From a virus, in IMG/VR virus record IMGVR_UViG_3300005527_000046, positions 64,001 through 108,198 of that record: a DNA stretch of 44,198 bases. The stretch is one strand, 5' to 3'. Both the position numbers and the translations under genes were made by a program. How positions within the stretch are numbered: the stretch's first letter is position 1; each line of letters opens with the position of its first letter. A model generated the notes under the pieces. It had not been told where the DNA came from, did no database searches, and saw only the letters and a list, made by a program, of their open reading frames with translations. Of this stretch, positions 22,805 to 44,198 are shown piece after piece.

Positions 22805-25567
22805 TTAACTTAGTGAGACATTACCAGATACATCTCTTGTTAAAGTGACTACAATTCTTTCAATAGGAGCTGTTGGTCTATAACTTAAAGAGATGTTTAA
22901 TATACCACTGTAATAGGCTTCTGCTGGATTATTGCTTTCATCAATTTGAGGTTGATCATAAGAAACAATAAAGTTACTTCTGGTTTGTAAATTCATATAA
23001 GCAGAAATAGCAGCAGCTATCTTAGTTCTAATAGTTCTAGTATTAGGTTCTCCTTTATAGCTTTGAAGATTGAAGAAGATATCTTTTCTAATCTTGTCAT
23101 TAACTCTTACAATTGAGATTTGGTTCTTACCAATTGTGTCTGTCATTGTCCTACCTTGTACTACAAAGTAACCAGATAAAGCAGGGTCAATTGCAATCAA
23201 GTCAACCTTAGCATCAATGAATAGTTGTTTAGCACTAATAGATCTATAACCATCAGTATCTGCTTCTATGATTCCTTGAATAGATCCTGCACTTGTTCTA
23301 GCAGCAGGGCTAATATTCTCAGGAATAGCGGCTAACTTACCAGCATAAAAAGCTGCAAGTGGTACTGTAAATCTACCAATGTTAGAACCACCACCATAGG
23401 TTGCCCAACCACCAATATAAACCCCTCTTTCAGTGTTAATACCTGCTGTTTCTGTTCTTGCAAGACCGGGAGTTAAGTTTCTAGTAGATGTAAGAATAGC
23501 TAACTTTCTACCTTCTAATTCACCACTGTTGTTAGCAACAGATAGTTGAGCTTGTCTTACTGCTGGCATAGCACCTAGTTCACTAGCAACAACAATAAAG
23601 TTTACTCTTTCTTCTGCTAAAGACTTAATAGCTGCAATATAATCTTCTTCTGTTGGTAGGGGACCATCATAACCTTTCTTTAAGAATAGACCAGATAGTT
23701 TAGCATTACCTACATATAAAGGATTTCTAATGTCAGTTACACTTGTAATGAATGGATTAGCAGGAGCTAGCCTTTGGGGTGTTCTAGTTACAATTTGAGC
23801 AGGGAATAAATTGCTACCAGTTGTAACTGGAATGTAATCAGCTCTAACATATGAGGAGCCAATTGAGTTAATAGTTCCATCACTTGCAACGTCTCTTAAT
23901 AGATCTACATTGAATGACTCAACTTGTTTATCATTAGTGTTAGTATTTGCATCTTCAATAGTTACAGAGAACTTACTTGAACCAGTACTATTTACACTAA
24001 TAGATAAGTTATTTCCCCATTGTCCAGGACTAAGAGCAGTAAATCTAACTAAAGGATAGCCATCAGCACTGTATAGAGTTAAGAAGGCGTTTCTTGCACT
24101 ATTAGATGTTGAAGAGAAGCCAGTCTTATTTAATGGGCCGTAATTACTAAAGTTTATACCATTCAAGTTATTGAATGTTACAGTTCCACTTACAATGTTT
24201 GCAGAGACTGGATCACTTAATGTAAGAACATTACCTACTTTGTTAATAACTGTAGTTCCTTGAATGATACTTGTACCAACAACAATTGAATCAATTGCAA
24301 TGTTTGTAGCATCTGCAACAGTTAAAGTTACACCGCCAGAGGTTGCTGAACCAGTTGTAACTACTTGTCCATCAGGCTCATTTAAGTCAATCCATAAGCT
24401 ATAACCACTAGAAATAGTTACTCTATCTGGATCTTCTAGGTCAAAGAATTCTAGAGGTTGACCAACAATATCTTCTGATAAATAGATTCTTGCACCAGCT
24501 TCTGAAGGTAATCTATCAACAATACCAATAGGTGAAACTCCACCAGTTATGTCTTGAATGTTGTTGATAACATCTGAAGCGGTTGCACCTTCAGCAATAG
24601 GAATATAATACTCAGCAGAGTTAGCTCTTACTGTGAATGAATCTCCAGGATATAATTCAATTGGAATGCCAGTTGTACTAAATTTTAATGAGATACCTTC
24701 TGCAATTAATTTTACAATTCCAGCATCTGTAGTTAAATCTAAAGCGGTTCCTATAACTCCACCAGTTATTGTGGCTGAAAGTGTGTCTACATATGTAGGT
24801 ACATCAGCACTGTCATTACCCCAGTTTACCGTAGGAATGTTGTATAAGAATGGATACTGATCAATAGGTAAAGCTACCCACTTTAGTGTTGCTTTGTTGG
24901 TAAGAGTAAATCCTCCATATCCAGCTACCGCAGTAACTAAAGGAGCAGATAATGTTACAACTCCAGTTAGAGGATTAACACCTGTTACAGTAGTTGTTGT
25001 TGGTAAAGTCAAAACACCAGAATCTGTACTAGCAATTTTAGACCCGATTACAATCTTTTCAGCGTTGGCAATTGATGTTGTAATTGTAGATGCAGATGTT
25101 GCTTGATTATAAGTAGCATTTAAGGTGATAGGACCTTGTGTTACTTTAAACAAGTATCTTTTATCTACATTGCCAGTGTAACTACCTTCAGCAGCAATAA
25201 ATGTTTCAATAAAGCTTGTTGTTGTACTTACTGGTTGACCTACAAACTTTAAGTTGACAGTTAGAGTGTTAGCTTTTGTAGCAACTCCACCAACATATAA
25301 ATCAACTTTAGGAGACTGTGATCTTCCAATTACTCTTTTTATACCAAATTCTCTAGCTCCTTGATCATAAGCTGCTTGGAAAGATAGGTTAGCAATACCT
25401 GTATCATATCCATATATTCTGGCAAAATCTCTAAATTCAGATAACAGAACAGTGTTTATTGGTCCTCTTGTGAATTCACCTACAATAGCGACTCTGTTAG
25501 AAGCATCAGTATTAATTGGTGCGCCTAAGCTAGGAGTCTCGTTAAAAATAACTTCAGGAACTCTCAT
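22805..25567 (-). CDS. Tail sheath protein, enlarged
   Basis: The 920-residue protein is a contractile sheath. The N-terminus MRVPEVIFNETPSLGAP, RVAIVGEFTRGPINTV and the C-terminal third (GVYIGGWATYGG, VPLAAFYAG, GYFVVQGRTM, then NDKIRKDIFFNL) match the sheath family. Typical sheaths have about 450-660 residues, so this one is enlarged. Two similar beta inserts, about 160-224 and 408-468, each carry GT-x-V, a G-x-(L/V)-TLS-x-P and a closing G-x-x-T-(F/L), and look like duplicated Ig-like surface modules. The start ATG overlaps the preceding gene by 14 nt. Confidence 0.92.
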   Translation of the reverse strand: MRVPEVIFNETPSLGAPINTDASNRVAIVGEFTRGPINTVLLSEFRDFARIYGYDTGIANLSFQAAYDQGAREFGIKRVIGRSQSPKVDLYVGGVATKANTLTVNLKFVGQPVSTTTSFIETFIAAEGSYTGNVDKRYLFKVTQGPITLNATYNQATSASTITTSIANAEKIVIGSKIASTDSGVLTLPTTTTVTGVNPLTGVVTLSAPLVTAVAGYGGFTLTNKATLKWVALPIDQYPFLYNIPTVNWGNDSADVPTYVDTLSATITGGVIGTALDLTTDAGIVKLIAEGISLKFSTTGIPIELYPGDSFTVRANSAEYYIPIAEGATASDVINNIQDITGGVSPIGIVDRLPSEAGARIYLSEDIVGQPLEFFDLEDPDRVTISSGYSLWIDLNEPDGQVVTTGSATSGGVTLTVADATNIAIDSIVVGTSIIQGTTVINKVGNVLTLSDPVSANIVSGTVTFNNLNGINFSNYGPLNKTGFSSTSNSARNAFLTLYSADGYPLVRFTALSPGQWGNNLSISVNSTGSSKFSVTIEDANTNTNDKQVESFNVDLLRDVASDGTINSIGSSYVRADYIPVTTGSNLFPAQIVTRTPQRLAPANPFITSVTDIRNPLYVGNAKLSGLFLKKGYDGPLPTEEDYIAAIKSLAEERVNFIVVASELGAMPAVRQAQLSVANNSGELEGRKLAILTSTRNLTPGLARTETAGINTERGVYIGGWATYGGGSNIGRFTVPLAAFYAGKLAAIPENISPAARTSAGSIQGIIEADTDGYRSISAKQLFIDAKVDLIAIDPALSGYFVVQGRTMTDTIGKNQISIVRVNDKIRKDIFFNLQSYKGEPNTRTIRTKIAAAISAYMNLQTRSNFIVSYDQPQIDESNNPAEAYYSGILNISLSYRPTAPIERIVVTLTRDVSGNVSLS

Positions 25568-31179: not shown

Positions 31180-32048
31180 ACTTGATATTTTTATATCCGC
31201 TCCATCCTTTATAAAAAGTACCTTTATTTATAAGAGAATGCATACAAGATATAGCTAATTTATTTTCTCTGCAAAAATTATTTAGATTTACACAGATATG
31301 CTCTTTTCCTTTTGGATCAGTTAAAAAGTAAGTATAAAATGTTTTAGTATTAAGATTTTTATTTATTATGAATTGGAGTCTTTTTCACCTTTTTCATTTA
31401 GAGGAATTATTGTTCCTGATATTCCTTTATAGTGATATCCAAATATTAAATTTCTTATTATAGATGGTTTTGATAAACTTAGTTGATTACAAAAATCTTG
31501 TAAGTCTAAATCATCAAATACATAAACATCACCATTTAGAGTGTTTATTTTATATTCAAATAAACTTACATATTGTTTATCCTTTCTTTTTTTTGTTCAA
31601 TTACTTCTGAGTTTTGTATATATTTAGATAAAAAAGGAATTCTAGTTTTTCTGTTTTCTGCTCTTTTACTTATTTTTAATTTAGATTCTTCTGAGTGATG
31701 TTTCCCCTGCATTGGATTTGTTTCTGCTAAAGGATTTATGTTATAACCCTTTTCTGGATTAGAAGAATCATAATAATCCATCCAATATTGTTCTCTTTTT
31801 GTTAAGAGTTCTTTATTAACAGTTCCATCACTTAATCTAGGAATTTCTTCTAGTAATTCAAATTTAAAATTAATTTCACCATATTTATTCCAAGAATGTT
31901 GTAGTCTTTGATTGTCATGTTGGTTTCTTCTGAGATTTAATTTATGATCTCCTTTTCTACCATTAAAATAAGATGTTTGGCCAATATATCTTTTGCTATT
32001 AATAATTTTGGTTATTGAATAAATTCCTGAGACTTTAGTTCTAGACAT
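31178..32048 (-). pseudogene. GIY-YIG homing endonuclease, frame broken twice
   Basis: The intact frame from ATG 32,048 to TAA 31,566 (160 codons) carries the GIY-YIG nuclease: SGIYSITKIINSKRYIGQT at residues 7-25, HDNQRLQHSWNKYGE, and a NUMOD3-like MQGKHHSEESKLKISK. Past its stop, two more recognisable pieces lie in other frames. One contains DLQDFCNQLSLSKPSI...YKGI, and one contains DPKGKEHICVNLNNFCREN...FYKGWSG, both the DNA-binding repeats that close phage homing endonucleases. Adding one A at the A8 run (31,587-31,594) and one A at the A5 run (31,381-31,385) joins all three into a 290-codon frame ending with TAG at 31,178. It lies right after the capsid gene terminator, a normal insertion place for such selfish elements. 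Confidence 0.85.
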
Positions 32049-32160: not shown

Positions 32161-33480
32161 TTATAAACTGCCATACTGCAAGTCGCCAAGGACCCCAATT
32201 CTGGTGTTAATATCTTGAATTGTACCAATGGTCATGTGAGCTACTCTATGAGGATATAGCAAGTAAGGAAGACCAGCATTACCCATTTGAATGTACATAC
32301 CAGGAGCAGCAGGGATTGGGGTATCTCTTTGTTCTCTCATCCACAATCCAGGATTACCACCTGATTCTTCTGATACACAATATTGAGTTCTACCTGGAGC
32401 TTCATAGTTACCATCAGGACCAGCTTCAGATACAAATACAACTTTGTTTCTAGGCCATAGAAACTTTCTTACACCGTCTACTGGATCACGATACCAAGTC
32501 TCAACTGTTCTAATTGGAATGCCAGCTAAGGAAATAATACCATCTGGGCCAACACCAATAGAACCAACTTGATTAGCACTTAGTACATCAGATTCAATTT
32601 GATAGCCACCACCAGTATTACTAATTAATACATTTTTGTCACCTGTTTTAGCGCCTAGTCTAGGAATAAGTCCACCAGTTTGAAGCTTAATCTCATTGTT
32701 TTCTGAGATGATCATCTTCAAGTCAGGGTGAATATACATTGCTGTAATCTTAGTCTTATTGGTTGTTTTGAACCAATAGGCAAACTTTTGAATACAGGAG
32801 ACAATGGCTGCGTCTGGTTCAGTCCAAGGCATACCAGAAGTTGTGGCTTGAGGTGTATTATAATCAACTAAACCTCTGAATAGATTGGCTTCATTTCTAC
32901 CTCTATAACCTTGAGTGTTGTTATAACTCCAGAAGTTATGAGCAGGAATTTGTGCTGATACATTAATTGGTTGGCCGCTTCTAGGATCTGTATAGTTAAT
33001 ACCACCAAGAAGAGTTAAACCTCTGTACACATCCCAAGTCAAGTTGTGAGCTTCAACAAGCTTTTCAATTTGCTTGGCTACAAATGCTTCTGGATTTTCA
33101 AAGTCATTAACAGTGCCATCTTTAATTCTAATATTAGCGTCACCCCAAGAAATGTAGTGAGAGCCTCTTAGATACAAAGGTTGTACATAACGTCTTTGAG
33201 TTGTGTATTGACTGATTCCTAATAGTTGATCTGGCTCACCAAATTTAACAGGTGTAAATAAGGTACCAGTTGTTTCAAACTTTTGTTCTATAGCAACAAT
33301 TGGTTGCTTGATAGTTTGATCTGGAAACAATTCCTTTAAAGGAGTTGAACCGACTAGAGGAAGGAAAGACTTTGCTAGTTCTAGATAACTAGGTACGCCT
33401 GGCTTCTCACTAGTACTTACTGTTTCCCAAGGAGATGCATATGCATTCATATTAAAAGCTGGAACTTGTTGTAATGCCAT
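32161..33480 (-). CDS. Major capsid protein (gpE-like)
   Basis: The 439-residue protein is the best capsid candidate. It begins MALQQVPAFNMNAYASPWE and its middle (residues about 130-165, with AHNLTWDVYRGLTLLGG...INYTDPRSGQPINV) matches the phage capsid E family, in which an E/W-rich helix 'l.wdv..ALl.G...' precedes a strand with GxPI. AT-rich neighbours contrast with its more balanced codon use (GGT, CCA, ACC), which fits high expression. It follows the protease/scaffold gene by 39 nt, and a terminator ends it. It should form the HK97-fold shell hexamers and pentamers. Confidence 0.88.
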   Translation of the reverse strand: MALQQVPAFNMNAYASPWETVSTSEKPGVPSYLELAKSFLPLVGSTPLKELFPDQTIKQPIVAIEQKFETTGTLFTPVKFGEPDQLLGISQYTTQRRYVQPLYLRGSHYISWGDANIRIKDGTVNDFENPEAFVAKQIEKLVEAHNLTWDVYRGLTLLGGINYTDPRSGQPINVSAQIPAHNFWSYNNTQGYRGRNEANLFRGLVDYNTPQATTSGMPWTEPDAAIVSCIQKFAYWFKTTNKTKITAMYIHPDLKMIISENNEIKLQTGGLIPRLGAKTGDKNVLISNTGGGYQIESDVLSANQVGSIGVGPDGIISLAGIPIRTVETWYRDPVDGVRKFLWPRNKVVFVSEAGPDGNYEAPGRTQYCVSEESGGNPGLWMREQRDTPIPAAPGMYIQMGNAGLPYLLYPHRVAHMTIGTIQDINTRIGVLGDLQYGSL

Positions 33481-34923: not shown

Positions 34924-35427
34924 ATGGAAATGGATAATCTCCTTGATATTAAATTTACTAGAAGTCATGCTTTATCTGAAGAAGTAAGAGCAGAAGTTAC
35001 ATCTAGATTATATGGCTTGATTGCTAGTTATATTGATGCTAGTGGTATTGTACTAGAAGCGCATTGGAATAGTGAGGGTAATAATTTTATTACTGTTCAT
35101 ACTTTATTTGGGGATATTGTTGGATTATTAAATGGATTTGTTGATCCATTAGGAGAAAGAATTAGATCTTTTGGAGGCACTGCTAAAGCTAACTTAAGGT
35201 ATGCTTTGGAAAATACTTTATTAGTTGAAACTCAAGCAATTTCTAATAATATTGATAGTAATATTCAAGCAGTAGTAACTATACTTAAAAGATTAAGTGA
35301 GTTGTTATATATGTTTATTAATTCTTTAGATAGTTTAGATAAGACTACATCTAACATATTACAAGATCAATGTAATAGTGTAGATAAATACATCTATCTT
35401 TTACAAAGTCATTTGTTTAATAGCTAA
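34924..35427 (+). CDS. dps: Dps/ferritin-like DNA protection protein
   Basis: The 167-residue protein aligns by eye along its whole length with Dps. AHWNSEGNNFITVH (46-59), D74-P-L-G-E78-R and GG near 84 match the family core, and DKTTSNILQDQ with LLQSHL matches the C-terminal 'DdTadil..l' and 'wfl.s.l'. Using E. coli numbering, ferroxidase residues H51, H63, D78 and E82 are present as H47, H59, D74 and E78, but D67 is replaced by G63, with an Asp one residue later. Dps forms 12-mers that oxidise Fe(II) with peroxide and may bind DNA. Here the gene is monocistronic with its own promoter motif and terminator, on the strand opposite the flanking capsid genes. A second ATG (34,930) is possible. 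Confidence 0.88.
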   Translation: MEMDNLLDIKFTRSHALSEEVRAEVTSRLYGLIASYIDASGIVLEAHWNSEGNNFITVHTLFGDIVGLLNGFVDPLGERIRSFGGTAKANLRYALENTLLVETQAISNNIDSNIQAVVTILKRLSELLYMFINSLDSLDKTTSNILQDQCNSVDKYIYLLQSHLFNS

Positions 35428-37656: not shown

Positions 37657-39084
37657 TTATTCTTCCTCGTCTGGTATTGCTAATAGGTTTCTAAAATGTC
37701 TTCTATCTTTTTCATTGATAATAGGATTTATAATACCAGCCTCTGTTAATGTTTTAGCACTGTCTGCTATTACTTTGTAATCTACATATCTCATAGGCTT
37801 GATTGTAAAATAACCTCCATCTTGTGCACTAGGCACTAACATTGTACTAAAGTTGTACTGAATAAGAGGTTTTACTAATTGTTCAATTATTGCTTGAGAT
37901 ACCTTAATAGCTATTTGAGTTATAGCCATATCAAATATTTCTAACTGCCTTTCTGCAGATCCACCAGAGCCTAAACCTCTTCCTTCATCTCTAATAATTA
38001 AGTTAGGAATACCTAAAGCATTTAACATGTTTTGGTCACATAAATTAATAGCATTTACAAAAGAATCACCAAAGTTATTTCCAGTTGTAAGTGCCGCTAC
38101 TTTAGGTTCTGGTGCGTCTTTATTTCCTTGTCTTTCAAGTATAAGAACAGAACCACTACTTAATCCTTGAACTTCTTCTTGTAGAGCTTCTCTAAACATT
38201 TTCTTTCTAATTGTTCCATCTTGTTCTTCAACATCTTCTGTTGTTTGAGTTGCTGGAACAATAAAATACATTAGAGGTGTTCCATATCTATCAAGAGCAA
38301 TGGAATACATATCTCTAAAGGCTTCTTTGTATAATGAAAAGTCTACTGCTGCATAAATAGCTGGTGTACCATGTGGATTGTTACCTTCACTTTTATATGT
38401 AACCATAATTAGCTTGTCTTGAGCTAATCTTATGTGTGATCCAGTACAATCTCTACTTACTTTATATGCTTTACTATCTTCTGTTAATATAGGTCTAGGA
38501 ACCCAAACACCTGTATTAAACTGACTATTTAGTACCTTTTCACCATGAGTTAAAGAGCCAAAATTATTGAGTCTAAGTATTATCTGAGACGTATGATAAT
38601 TAATAAGATCTTGTATCCATAGCTGTCTTACCTCTCCTTGATATCTCTTTTCCCATACAATTTCAGATACTGATTTACCAGACCATAACATTGAATATGT
38701 AATGTTCTCAATCCAAGTTCTGACTCTATTGTTTAGGTTTGCCCTAACAAATGCTTTTATGTCTGGGTTTGGATGATTGTAAGAACCTATCTTTGCCAAC
38801 ACAGAAAGAACCATCTTATCTAAACCATCAGATATAATAGGCTCTCTTTTTCTTACATAATCCCATACTGCTAGTTGATAAGGATGTGGTCCTGTGTTGA
38901 CATATAAAGAATCACCATTACTAACAAAAGATGTGGCTCTTCCTAATTGTTTATAAGTATTAGGTCTTAGTTTGTTATCTCCTAATACTAGTAATGGAGG
39001 ATTAGTATTAAACTTGTTTATATTAATCTCTCCATTACTAACTTGTTGTTCCTTTTTAGGTGTCTCTGTTTTTGCTTTTATCAT
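37657..39084 (-). CDS. Portal protein (Mu gp29 / DUF935-like)
   Basis: The 475-residue product resembles the Mu gp29-type portal family. It has a helical core (DGLDKMVLSVLAKIG), the SMLWSGKSVSEIVWE strand, DRYGTPLMYFIVPA, and an end helix region with GSAERQLEIFDMAITQIA and IIEQLVKPLI. It should form the dodecameric ring at the capsid vertex that accepts the packaging motor and neck. The neighbours fit: a Mu I-like protease and gpE-like capsid gene lie downstream. The terminase that would normally stand upstream is not in the window. The start ATG follows the preceding stop by one base. Confidence 0.88.
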   Translation of the reverse strand: MIKAKTETPKKEQQVSNGEININKFNTNPPLLVLGDNKLRPNTYKQLGRATSFVSNGDSLYVNTGPHPYQLAVWDYVRKREPIISDGLDKMVLSVLAKIGSYNHPNPDIKAFVRANLNNRVRTWIENITYSMLWSGKSVSEIVWEKRYQGEVRQLWIQDLINYHTSQIILRLNNFGSLTHGEKVLNSQFNTGVWVPRPILTEDSKAYKVSRDCTGSHIRLAQDKLIMVTYKSEGNNPHGTPAIYAAVDFSLYKEAFRDMYSIALDRYGTPLMYFIVPATQTTEDVEEQDGTIRKKMFREALQEEVQGLSSGSVLILERQGNKDAPEPKVAALTTGNNFGDSFVNAINLCDQNMLNALGIPNLIIRDEGRGLGSGGSAERQLEIFDMAITQIAIKVSQAIIEQLVKPLIQYNFSTMLVPSAQDGGYFTIKPMRYVDYKVIADSAKTLTEAGIINPIINEKDRRHFRNLLAIPDEEE

Positions 39085-39504: not shown

Positions 39505-39915
39505 TTAGGCGGTGATCGTTGTAGCAGGGGTGATAGTAGTAGGTTGTTCCACTGAGGTTTGTGACTTTCCCTCCATCAAAGCTTTAGCATTGGCTTGTGC
39601 TCTTTGCTTTGTTACATCATCTGTAAAGGCAATAGCTACAAATACTTCTAGATAGAAAGAAAGATCTCTCATGGCCCAATCTGAAATTTGATCAATTACA
39701 TCATATTCATAATCTGCCATCATTGGTTTGCCATTTACACTTACTAACATCATAGCTGCTAATAGTTCTTCTAGCATAAAGCCAGCTTCATTTTGTTGCT
39801 GTCTGAATCTTTTCATTGCTACTTGTCTATCTCTAAATGTAGGAATGGCAAAAACAATCTTTTTACCAGATGGTAGAGTAATAGGAAATGAGGTAGCCGT
39901 ATCTTTTTGTGACAT
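39505..39915 (-). CDS. Small head/tail assembly protein candidate
   Basis: The 136-residue product starts MSQKDTATSFPITLPSGKKIVFAIPTFRDRQ, then a helix pair (LEELLAAMMLVSVNGKPM; ISDWAMRDLSFYLEVFVAIAF) and a Thr/Pro-rich tail. The N-terminal strand 'LPSGK..vf.iPt..Dr' and the helical core resemble small tail-assembly or baseplate chaperones, but this is a weak likeness. It is the first gene of the minus-strand cluster next to the divergent PLD-like gene, and its ATG faces a 142-bp intergenic region. A chaperone role is inferred with low confidence. Confidence 0.45.
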   Translation of the reverse strand: MSQKDTATSFPITLPSGKKIVFAIPTFRDRQVAMKRFRQQQNEAGFMLEELLAAMMLVSVNGKPMMADYEYDVIDQISDWAMRDLSFYLEVFVAIAFTDDVTKQRAQANAKALMEGKSQTSVEQPTTITPATTITA

Positions 39916-40057: not shown

Positions 40058-43000
40058 ATGTCTAGTTATTTTTCAAACACAGAATATCACTTAGAATCAA
40101 GAAGAGAAGTTGTTAGTGGATTACATAATAATTTACAACAAGGTAGTAGAAGTGCTTTAGGTACCTCTGTTAGCTTTAGTTTGTATAATTCAGAAGGCTT
40201 CACTCAAGAACTTAATTATTCTGGTTCTAGTTGGGATGCTGCATTAAATATGTCTAATAACATATCTAATGGTATTTTTGCTGTAGATACTAGTTCAGGT
40301 AAAAGTAGTGCTTTTGATAATAGATTAGTTTTAGGCCTCTCTCAAACTGTAAGCAGTAGAACTTTTAGTGAGTTTGATAGTAATATTGCAAATAGTCTTA
40401 AAGATAGTAGAAATAGCCTTAAGTTTCTAATGGGTGAGGCTTATAGAATAGATCCTAGTGAAACAAAGGCTTATGCTAGTCAATTAGTATTTGAAAACTT
40501 ATTTGGTAGTATTCTGTCTCAAAGAGGTATGTATGTTGGTAGTAATAATGCTAGTAAGGTTGATAATTACTATTTGAATCAATCTATTGACTATGCTAGA
40601 GCATTTGATAAATTAAGAATGACAGATAAACAATCTATTGAGTCTAGAGGACAAGAGACATTAGATAGATTGGTTTATAGTGATTTGTTTGGTACGGGTT
40701 TAGTGCCTATTGCTTCTGGAACTGATCCTACAGAACAAGATAGAAGCTTCTATGATAATGTTTTTAATAATATTAATAGAAGAACTGGATCTACTATTAG
40801 TGATTTAGCTTTTATTAGAAGTAAGTCAATGACTAATGAGTTAGTTGGAGGTAATGTTAGCAGAACTACTAGATCTGTTAGAGGTGTTGATGTTGCTATT
40901 AATAATAGTTATCAGCAAAAGGCAGAAGGAATTATTCATGATATTAAGTATCAAACTAGACCAGGTATTTTACCTTTTGTAGCTATGTTTGAAGCAGCTA
41001 ATAGTAGTATTACTATTGATACCTTCCAATATCAAAATAAAGCTATTAGTGATGTTGTTGTTAGTAAAATATATAGAGAAATTATTACTAATAAGAATTA
41101 TGGCTTTAAAGTTAATATGACTGTTGGTACTCCTCTTCCTAGTGATGATGGTACTGGGGCAGCTATCTTTGGTCCTAATATCTTAGAAGTAGTTAAGATG
41201 CAAAAACTACAAGAAGTTATTACTAAACAACTAAAAGCAGAAGGTATTGAACAGAATATTATTGACCAAGTTAACAGTAATTTTACAATTCAATTAGCTG
41301 GTCCTGCCCATCACAGAAAGGTTTATATCACAGATCAAGCTGCTGTGTTAGGTAGTATTAACTTAACTAGTCCTGTAGGAGATTCTGTCTTTAAAGCTGG
41401 TTCTAACTTTGAAATGCTAGGCATGTTTCACTCTGATAAGACTTTGGTTAATGTTAGAAATAATAAGGCTGTTCCTTATAGCCCTGAATATATTGAGCAG
41501 ACTAAGATAGAACAACAAGATGTTTATTCAACTGTTAGTAAGAAAACTAGATCTGCTTTACTATATGAACAAGTTGTGGCTGCTCAAAAAGAACAAGCTG
41601 TAACTAGAAGTAGTCAGTCTAATATTAAATATGCAACAGATGTTATGTATGCTTTAAAAGCTACAGTTGACTATTTGCATAAAGAAACTGGAAGAGAATC
41701 AAAGGCTAAAGATAATAATTTGGAAAACTTGCAAGGCAAACTTACAAGTGATTTAAGCATGACTATGGTCTTAGACCAAGCTTATTTATTACATGTTAAT
41801 CATCTAGATATGAATGGTCAAGGTAGAGGATATAGAGATGACACTAATGCAATAAATAAGAATAATCAAGAAATGGGGGAAATGGGCAGATTTAATGAGT
41901 CTGATTATAATTCTCCTTCTTTTAAATCAAGACAAGATATTAGATATGACATGTATAAGAGTATACAAAGAAAGAACTTTACTCTTGTTGCTATGGGTAT
42001 TACTAATATTGTTGTTGATCCTAAAAACTACAGAAGTCAAGTAATTGAGCCTACTTGGGACTTTATTAATTTAAGGCTTAAGAATGCTTTTGTTAGTGAT
42101 TATGGTGGATCTATTAGAGGTTTTGTAGAGGGTGTTACTAGAGGTGATTCTAGTTTTGGTGCAAAGGTTGCTGCTATTAATACTGCTTTAAATATAAATG
42201 ATACAAGTAGTAATACTGCTTATCAAATATTAGCTATTGCTAGTGGTAATATGTCTGGTGCTAATGTTCCTAGACAACATGCTAAAGCTTTTGAAGCTAA
42301 GAGAAATTTAGGCGGAGGTAGATATCAAGGTATATCTAGTTACATGGGTTCTGCTAACTTATCTATGTCTAATATGGGTGTTGGCATTAATAGTAGATAT
42401 CTAGAAGTAGGAGGTAATGATCCATTTGTAACGGATGAAATGGGTGTTGTACTTATCAATAGAAATGTCTTTGAAAAGGAAAGAGACTTTACATTAGATG
42501 ATGATTATACTAGAAACATACAGCAGCTAAGTATTGGTTTTAATAATGAGTTTGCTCTAAATTATGAGGAAGAACTAGCAGAAATGAAGGATGCTAGTAA
42601 GGCTGTTGTTATGGCTTACAACCAATTGAACTATGGTAATAGAATTGAAAGTGGAATACTACAATCTATTGAAGGTTTGCCATATTGGGCTAAACAAGCT
42701 AACACTGGAGACTTATTAAAATTAGAAGCTAGCCTTAAAAATATGAGTAAAGGCTTAGGAGAGGCTATGTCTGTTAATAGAAAATATGACAGATTTGGTA
42801 CTCCTAATATGCTTGAAATAAGTATTAATCCTAGTGGTTTAGTTGGTCTTAATACAGCTTCTAGTAGGCTTACATATACTGTTACTATGTTACAAGGAGA
42901 TGGTAATCAACCTGGTCCTGTATTCTTCCAAAAAGAAGGTAAGTTGATCTATAACAGTAACTTTACTAATACTAGTGGTAAGGATATTGTTTGGAATTAT

Positions 43001-44198
43001 AGTAATAATAAAGGTGGTAGATTAGCTGATGGACAGTCTGCAGAGATGTCTAGTATTGATAATACTACTAGTATCTTTGCAACCATGATTGCTGAGATGG
43101 CCTATAAACAAACTATTAGTAATCCTAGAGCTAAGTTGGTTGGTATAGATGAAGCAGGTAGTACTAGTTTAATGCTGGATTATACTGCTTCTGTTTTAGG
43201 TATTAATAGATATTTATTAGAGGATAGTACTACTGGCAGATATGCAGATGGTAATACTTTCTCTGACTATTTGTTTGCTAGCGGAAAACATATTAACTTA
43301 TCTTTTGAGTTAAGTAGTAGACTAGCAACTAAAGGAGTTGGCTATTTAGATAGTACTAGATCATTTGCAAGAATAGATGTTAATAGTAGTGATAGATCAG
43401 GTTTAAGAGAACATATACAAGGCTTGAGAGATGCTACTAGTGGCAGTGAAGTATATTCTAGAATAGATGCTATTAGTAAGCTAATGGGTCAACAAGGCTT
43501 TGAAGACTTAGCATTAGATGTACTTAGAGTTAATAGTAGATATAATGCTGAAGGTGATATTAATGCTCAAATGAGAGAGTTATCAAGTACTATATTTGAT
43601 CCTTATTTACAAGCCCATCAAGCGGTCACTTATGGTGCTGGTGTTGCTGCTAGTAAACTTATTAGTTATGGTATAGATGCTACTGATGCTCAAGCTTTAT
43701 TTATGTTAGATATGGGAGAGTCTGTTAAAGGCGGTCTATTAGATACACTAAATTATGCTAGAACATTTGCAAGAGATGTAAGTGTTTATAGTACCTTTGG
43801 ATTTGATGGGGCAGATGAAAGATTCTATATTGGTGGTGTTGCTGAAGGTGTTTCTACTCAGAATAAGAAGGGATATCAACTAAATGCCTTTGGTGTTAGA
43901 AATAAGTTTCCAATTGATAGAAATAGCTTAGATATATTAGAAGGAACTGGTATTGGTAATCTTGTTAGCAAAGAAAGACTATTAAAAAGATTTACTTCTG
44001 ATGAGGCAGATCAGATACTTAGTAACTTAAATATTAAAGGGAAAGGAATACTCTTTAACTTAGATCCTAATAAGCCAACACAAATTAACCAAAGAATTAA
44101 AAATGCTTTGGGTAGTAGATTAATGTATGAAATTAACTCTGAAGCGGCTGCTATATTAAAAGGTGGTGGAACTTTAAAGGCCTTTAAGTCTACTAAAA
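40058..44198 (+). CDS. Giant phospholipase-D-like protein, 3' end beyond window
   Basis: From the ATG at 40,058 the frame stays open for 1,380 codons to the right edge. It carries two HKD-type elements of the phospholipase D superfamily. First: H419-R-K421, D426, then G-S-I-N (432-435). Second: H741-A-K743, then G-S-A-N-L-S at 764-769, with Lys in the place of the usual Asp. Two HKD halves form one active site in this family of nucleases and lipases. The spacing between the first D and GSxN is five residues instead of six. The rest is Ser/Asn/Gly/Ile-rich with no signal peptide. Activity may be a nuclease or lipase; virion, ejected or host-directed roles are all possible. Confidence 0.85.
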   Translation, partial: MSSYFSNTEYHLESRREVVSGLHNNLQQGSRSALGTSVSFSLYNSEGFTQELNYSGSSWDAALNMSNNISNGIFAVDTSSGKSSAFDNRLVLGLSQTVSSRTFSEFDSNIANSLKDSRNSLKFLMGEAYRIDPSETKAYASQLVFENLFGSILSQRGMYVGSNNASKVDNYYLNQSIDYARAFDKLRMTDKQSIESRGQETLDRLVYSDLFGTGLVPIASGTDPTEQDRSFYDNVFNNINRRTGSTISDLAFIRSKSMTNELVGGNVSRTTRSVRGVDVAINNSYQQKAEGIIHDIKYQTRPGILPFVAMFEAANSSITIDTFQYQNKAISDVVVSKIYREIITNKNYGFKVNMTVGTPLPSDDGTGAAIFGPNILEVVKMQKLQEVITKQLKAEGIEQNIIDQVNSNFTIQLAGPAHHRKVYITDQAAVLGSINLTSPVGDSVFKAGSNFEMLGMFHSDKTLVNVRNNKAVPYSPEYIEQTKIEQQDVYSTVSKKTRSALLYEQVVAAQKEQAVTRSSQSNIKYATDVMYALKATVDYLHKETGRESKAKDNNLENLQGKLTSDLSMTMVLDQAYLLHVNHLDMNGQGRGYRDDTNAINKNNQEMGEMGRFNESDYNSPSFKSRQDIRYDMYKSIQRKNFTLVAMGITNIVVDPKNYRSQVIEPTWDFINLRLKNAFVSDYGGSIRGFVEGVTRGDSSFGAKVAAINTALNINDTSSNTAYQILAIASGNMSGANVPRQHAKAFEAKRNLGGGRYQGISSYMGSANLSMSNMGVGINSRYLEVGGNDPFVTDEMGVVLINRNVFEKERDFTLDDDYTRNIQQLSIGFNNEFALNYEEELAEMKDASKAVVMAYNQLNYGNRIESGILQSIEGLPYWAKQANTGDLLKLEASLKNMSKGLGEAMSVNRKYDRFGTPNMLEISINPSGLVGLNTASSRLTYTVTMLQGDGNQPGPVFFQKEGKLIYNSNFTNTSGKDIVWNYSNNKGGRLADGQSAEMSSIDNTTSIFATMIAEMAYKQTISNPRAKLVGIDEAGSTSLMLDYTASVLGINRYLLEDSTTGRYADGNTFSDYLFASGKHINLSFELSSRLATKGVGYLDSTRSFARIDVNSSDRSGLREHIQGLRDATSGSEVYSRIDAISKLMGQQGFEDLALDVLRVNSRYNAEGDINAQMRELSSTIFDPYLQAHQAVTYGAGVAASKLISYGIDATDAQALFMLDMGESVKGGLLDTLNYARTFARDVSVYSTFGFDGADERFYIGGVAEGVSTQNKKGYQLNAFGVRNKFPIDRNSLDILEGTGIGNLVSKERLLKRFTSDEADQILSNLNIKGKGILFNLDPNKPTQINQRIKNALGSRLMYEINSEAAAILKGGGTLKAFKSTK

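Follow-up and report, generated by a model that had tools for sequence, protein, structure and literature searches.

The window analysed here, a stretch of 44,198 nucleotides of viral DNA, ends within a giant gene next to the head genes, and the question was what a protein of this size with paired HKD elements does for the phage. We read it as a giant, probably ejected protein that combines a PLD phosphodiesterase with a candidate virion RNA polymerase, and give this whole statement a probability of about 0.5. The features on which the analysis drew are listed in Table 1.

Table 1 Features of the window considered in the analysis of the giant gene
Feature	Position in window	Strand	Basis
Giant gene, 5' part, residues 1-1380	40058..44197	+	Open frame to window end; continues past contig
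N-terminal region, residues 1-299, helical in model	40058..40954	+	pLDDT mostly <50 (AF2)
Complete two-lobed PLD module, residues ~300-868	40955..42661	+	AF2 model; Foldseek and VIA matches; PLDc_2
HKD motif 1, H419-x-K421-x4-D426 ... G432-S-I-N435	41312..41362	+	Motif search; conservation in 14 relatives
HKD motif 2, H741-x-K743 ... G764-S-A-N767	42278..42358	+	Motif search; conservation in 14 relatives
Post-PLD region, residues 869-1380, family-conserved	42662..44197	+	Blocks such as QxxQR(L/I)KN in distant relatives
Portal protein gene, syntenic neighbour	37657-39084	-	PHROG 113 and Pfam Portal_Mu
Small gene, syntenic neighbour	39505-39915	-	PHROG 32670
Major head gene	32161-33480	-	
Tail gene run around sheath	22805-25567	opposite to giant gene	

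No stop codon interrupts the open frame before the window ends, and the source IMG/VR contig ends at the same point (G000:C1:64001-108198 of 108,198 bp), in agreement with the earlier note's count of at least 1,380 residues. In L002, a contig from an almost identical virus whose translation differs from the window protein at two residues across the 1,380 in common, the frame is at least 1,908 aa long; this contig ends before the gene does as well, so that the rest of the gene was recovered only in part. Among complete relatives, L016 is the nearest, with 3,923 aa and ~60% identity to the window protein over the common part. Given that complete relatives range from 3,562 to 5,372 aa, the window holds about the first third of the protein. 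The Ser/Asn/Gly-rich composition described previously was confirmed (S 10.2%, N 8.1%, G 8.2% of the window protein), and this part of the protein contains no Cys.

Judged by sequence comparison, the giant protein is a member of the uncharacterised family of gp080 of phage Ma-LMM01 (phrog_31006), which was found in Microcystis phages, a Microcoleus phage, and IMG/VR contigs. The Ma-LMM01 protein (YP_851094, 3,562 aa) is annotated as hypothetical and has orthologues in MaMV. These distant homologues occupy the same genomic position and have both HKD sets and the DFDGD motif discussed below, but share only ~22-25% identity with the window protein. Further relatives were obtained from searches (L022-L025, L045, L050, L056, L059-L062/L065, L066, L081), while no relative of the giant protein was confirmed in the bacterial genomes searched. 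We found no paper in the open-licence literature searched that gives gp080 a function. L016 and most other relatives also have no Cys, and the Ma-LMM01-type protein has one near its annotated start. It should be noted that this start (L003:14479) may be 24 codons too early, as the next ATG (MDINSSLFSS) looks like other family starts; the sole Cys precedes that ATG. The giant gene of another relative (L066) contains one in-frame TGA (L066:13769-13771), flanked in the same frame by the PLD and DFDGD parts, which could be a gene break, an assembly error, or recoding.

Paired HKD elements 322 residues apart, the second lacking the standard Asp, had been claimed in the earlier note, and both points held. 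HxK followed by GSxN occurs exactly twice in the window protein, and none of 5,000 shuffles of this protein contained two such elements. Residues H419, K421, G432, N435, E452, H741, K743, S765, and N767 were invariant across 14 aligned relatives. A further, more distant relative (L081) kept His, Lys, and Asn in both motifs, and the Gly of its motif 1 is gone. Motif 1 of the window protein is a full H-x-K-x4-D, and its Asp position varies among relatives (D, N in L016, or E in L025); the absence of Asp from motif 2 is therefore no sign of a dead half. Pfam PLDc_2 scored 20-22 bits on the window protein alone, below the gathering score of 27, and matched 12 of the 14 aligned family members (best E-value 1.7e-7).

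In the AlphaFold2 model, residues ~300-868 mostly had pLDDT values of 70-90. The best Foldseek match of this module was Streptomyces PLD (E-value 1.7e-4, probability 1.0). VIA comparisons of the whole module gave Z scores of 14.5 with F13 (274 residues, 3.0 Å), 12.9 with PLD4 (279 residues, 3.2 Å), 12.8 with phosphatidylserine synthase, 12.6 with PLD3, and 12.2 with PPK1. Since one superposition spans both HKD halves, they lie in the usual PLD arrangement: structure prediction places them in one bilobed fold in which the two HxK/GSxN segments share a common site, as expected of a genuine two-HKD PLD module. The kind of fold that the earlier note had named as refuting its reading was therefore not seen. 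We consider a PLD fold with intact catalytic residues to be nearly certain. The module resembles the PLD3/PLD4 5' exonucleases, F13, bacterial phosphatidylserine synthase, Streptomyces PLD, and PPK1 in being bilobed with two HKD sets. However, these enzymes are stand-alone proteins with 9-15% identity to it, and their substrates are not transferable to the window module. Nucleases, lipid enzymes, and a kinase are all among its structural neighbours, so its substrate is not evident from the fold; by analogy with the PLD superfamily, the module is more likely a nuclease-type phosphodiesterase than a lipase. The module thus adds a member to a known superfamily, housed in an unusual carrier protein.

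The remaining part of the protein was accessible in relatives only, as it lies beyond the contig ends of both the window virus and L002, which is why its invariant motif had escaped the first reading of the sequence. D[FY]DGD was invariant in all 13 relatives long enough to contain it (DFDGD in 11 and DYDGD in two). The motif lies at residue 2537 of Ma-LMM01 gp080 (SNLGDFDGDTF) and residue 2812 of L016 (SNLGDFDGDNY). In the same 13 relatives, R2748, P2751, G2753, and R2793 (L016 numbers) were also invariant, the first three forming an R..P.G motif ~60 residues upstream of D[FY]DGD. No D[FY]DGD occurred in 105,557 residues of other ORFs from the same loci, and it appeared in less than 1% of shuffles of the L016 protein. 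In two-barrel RNA polymerases, DxDGD (DxDxD) forms the metal triad. An EF-hand calcium site was rejected, since DFDGD is followed by N, P, Q, T, S, or M and not by the EF-hand Gly. A candidate for the second barrel is a conserved S-x-S-K...K (K2039 and K2045 in L016); a second barrel with two basic catalytic residues was not located in the family. The alignment thus adds a new feature to the family, namely an invariant D[FY]DGD in every long-enough relative with R..P.G upstream. On this basis, a large share of the protein may be RNA polymerase, to which the PLD would form the N-terminal module.

The closest precedent is gp96 of the Thermus phage P23-45, a 5,002-aa virion protein with proven RNA polymerase activity whose polymerase was recognised by DFDGD without other detectable similarity (PMC10770324). 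Like the family members, gp96 is a giant protein with DFDGD, and it lacks Cys, as do most of the family; FRNPVMG precedes its DFDGD, and FRSPPxG precedes that of the family. The Phe or Tyr at position 2 and this shared register fit an RNA polymerase. In contrast, gp96 is fused to a tape measure, has its polymerase at the N-terminus, and has no reported PLD module. It shows no significant overall similarity to the family, and its activity is proven whereas that of the family is predicted. The crAss-like virion RNA polymerase of phi14:2 (gp66 of the literature) is likewise a large virion protein, with YRIPNQG before its motif, but the motif reads DFDID rather than DFDGD.

We compared an RpoC profile (81 sequences) with 15 windows along the family. 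It picked only the two windows containing DFDGD (scores of 30.7 and 29.9 vs ≤17.9 elsewhere), and a gp96 profile picked the same two (26.9 and 27.5 vs ≤20.6). When DFDGD was masked, both signals dropped to background, and column shuffles that kept DFDGD equalled the real score in 9 of 40 trials for RpoC and 2 of 40 for gp96. The profile signal, encouraging at first, proved to be mostly the motif itself; the gp96 match falls in the correct register, though weakly. The sequence evidence therefore consists of one invariant motif and a short upstream motif in the gp96 register, and not of a demonstrated fold. A crAss-like virion RNA polymerase profile gave no alignment to the family and did not discriminate among the 15 windows. 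Two real polymerases, the crAss-like and gp96 enzymes, reached only P 0.0025 when compared with each other, and the lack of a signal beyond the motif is thus not strong counter-evidence. The AlphaFold2 model of the DFDGD region (L016 residues 2000-3199), where a two-barrel polymerase would have a double-psi beta-barrel around the triad, had a pLDDT of 45.7. Fold searches with it matched helices and coiled coils; no RNA polymerase was among the VIA matches listed for this model, a result that excludes nothing. Neither gp080 nor the two profiles gave anything useful in PDB sequence searches, and Pfam and PHROGs searches of the C-terminal region returned no RNA polymerase family. Weighing these motif-level observations and the gene context, we lean slightly towards the giant protein being an RNA polymerase.

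A rather unlikely alternative is a giant pilot or 'polyvalent' protein that is ejected with the PLD as its sole enzyme, which would cut membrane lipid, or nucleic acid of the host or of plasmids, during entry, with DFDGD serving as a structural metal site. The PLD fold and residues are firm, support for a polymerase does not clearly extend beyond DFDGD, and the poorly modelled DFDGD region also agrees with this alternative. However, D[FY]DGD, R..P.G, and the additional Arg are invariant in 13 distant relatives, and the pattern, with Phe or Tyr at position 2 in the gp96 register, is RNA polymerase-like and not that of an EF-hand. The polyvalent proteins of phages and conjugative elements (PMC5512222) are similarly giant, multidomain, and thought to enter with DNA; the terms HKD, double-psi, Microcystis, and cyanophage are absent from the text of that paper.

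Relative to the portal and major head genes, the giant gene is oriented divergently, as the earlier note had observed. A homologue of the small neighbouring gene adjoins it in all 13 loci checked, and a portal gene homologue lies near it in 12 of the 13, mostly with the major head gene nearby. The divergent orientation was found in most loci, and in three (L050, L060, L064) the giant gene lies just upstream of these neighbours on the same strand. Two other genes of this region can be recorded: a ferritin-like gene (window 34924-35427, + strand; PF00210, E-value 4.7e-9) within the head gene region on the opposite strand, and a homing endonuclease gene (window 31566-32048, - strand; PHROG 7168, E-value 1.3e-22) adjoining the major head protein gene.

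The earlier suggestion of a virion or ejected protein carrying a PLD module stood as regards the module, the giant size, and the place beside the head genes, and the role itself is plausible. We consider it probable that the protein is in the virion or ejected. Our literature search found no virion proteomics. Low Cys content says less about ejection than it might, since few Cys also occur in other long proteins of the phage (none in the 920-aa sheath and one in a 3,443-aa protein). The latter is encoded by another giant ORF of this phage, outside the window (G000:C1:46040-56368, - strand; L180:6040-16368), with a DNA/RNA non-specific endonuclease domain near its N-terminus (PF01223, E-value 2.1e-33); this raises the possibility that two giant proteins with nuclease modules are delivered by the phage. 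Membership in a defence system was also considered and dropped, as PADLOC gave no hit, and this search lent no support to the defence-breaking role suggested in the earlier note.

Two further explanations were weighed. It is improbable that the protein is a non-virion RNA polymerase made after infection to transcribe middle or late genes, with the PLD serving inside the cell. Some phages do have non-virion two-barrel enzymes, such as P23-45 gp64 (PMC10770324), and we found no proteomics placing gp080 in the particle; against this are the adjoining portal and head genes in nearly all loci and a giant size like that of gp96. It is very improbable that the protein belongs to the tail, as its tape measure or another structural component, and carries the PLD module incidentally: its size would fit, and a tape measure can carry enzymes, a virion RNA polymerase included (PMC10770324), but the gene lies beside the portal gene, on the strand opposite to the tail gene run, and lengths within the family span the full range given above.

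Under the preferred reading of an ejected PLD-polymerase protein, the protein would be packaged in the virion and enter the cyanobacterial cell with the genome, as its size, neighbours, few Cys, and precedents suggest. The C-terminal half, known from relatives, would transcribe early phage genes on the incoming DNA, as P23-45 gp96 does. Where the DNA enters, the PLD module would meanwhile act on nucleic acid or on the membrane, with His attacking a phosphodiester bond to form a phospho-histidine intermediate, as in the PLD superfamily. More specifically, we tentatively propose that the giant proteins of these relatives of the Microcystis phages are virion RNA polymerases of the single-chain, two-barrel kind, forming a family not recognised before, with an N-terminal PLD phosphodiesterase, and are ejected for host-independent early transcription. 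The fusion of a PLD enzyme with a polymerase would, to our knowledge, represent a new architecture. If true, it would be a new variant of virion RNA polymerase, would give the uncharacterised giant family phrog_31006 a candidate function, and would raise the question of which phosphodiester is cut on DNA entry.

Ma-LMM01-type phages infect bloom-forming Microcystis, and a packaged polymerase, if true, would change the host-dependent model of their transcription. Ma-LMM01 has been described as relying on host sigma-70-type transcription for every gene class, its promoters of all classes being read as host sigma-70-like (PMC5780444); the word 'rifampicin' does not occur in the text of that paper. 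MaMV-DH01 was described as having no RNA polymerase (PMC9927357), a statement that rests on annotation. We found no upstream motif common to the Ma-LMM01 early genes. The early cluster gp054-gp063 of Ma-LMM01 (PMC5780444) starts with gp063, and directly upstream of this gene lie nearly seven 42-bp repeats (NC_008562 43271-43551; L177:6772-7052), each with a small inverted repeat, CTCCCCAGCGGAG. No tandem array like it was found in the rest of the contig of the window phage. The Ma-LMM01 array could be a promoter or a binding array.
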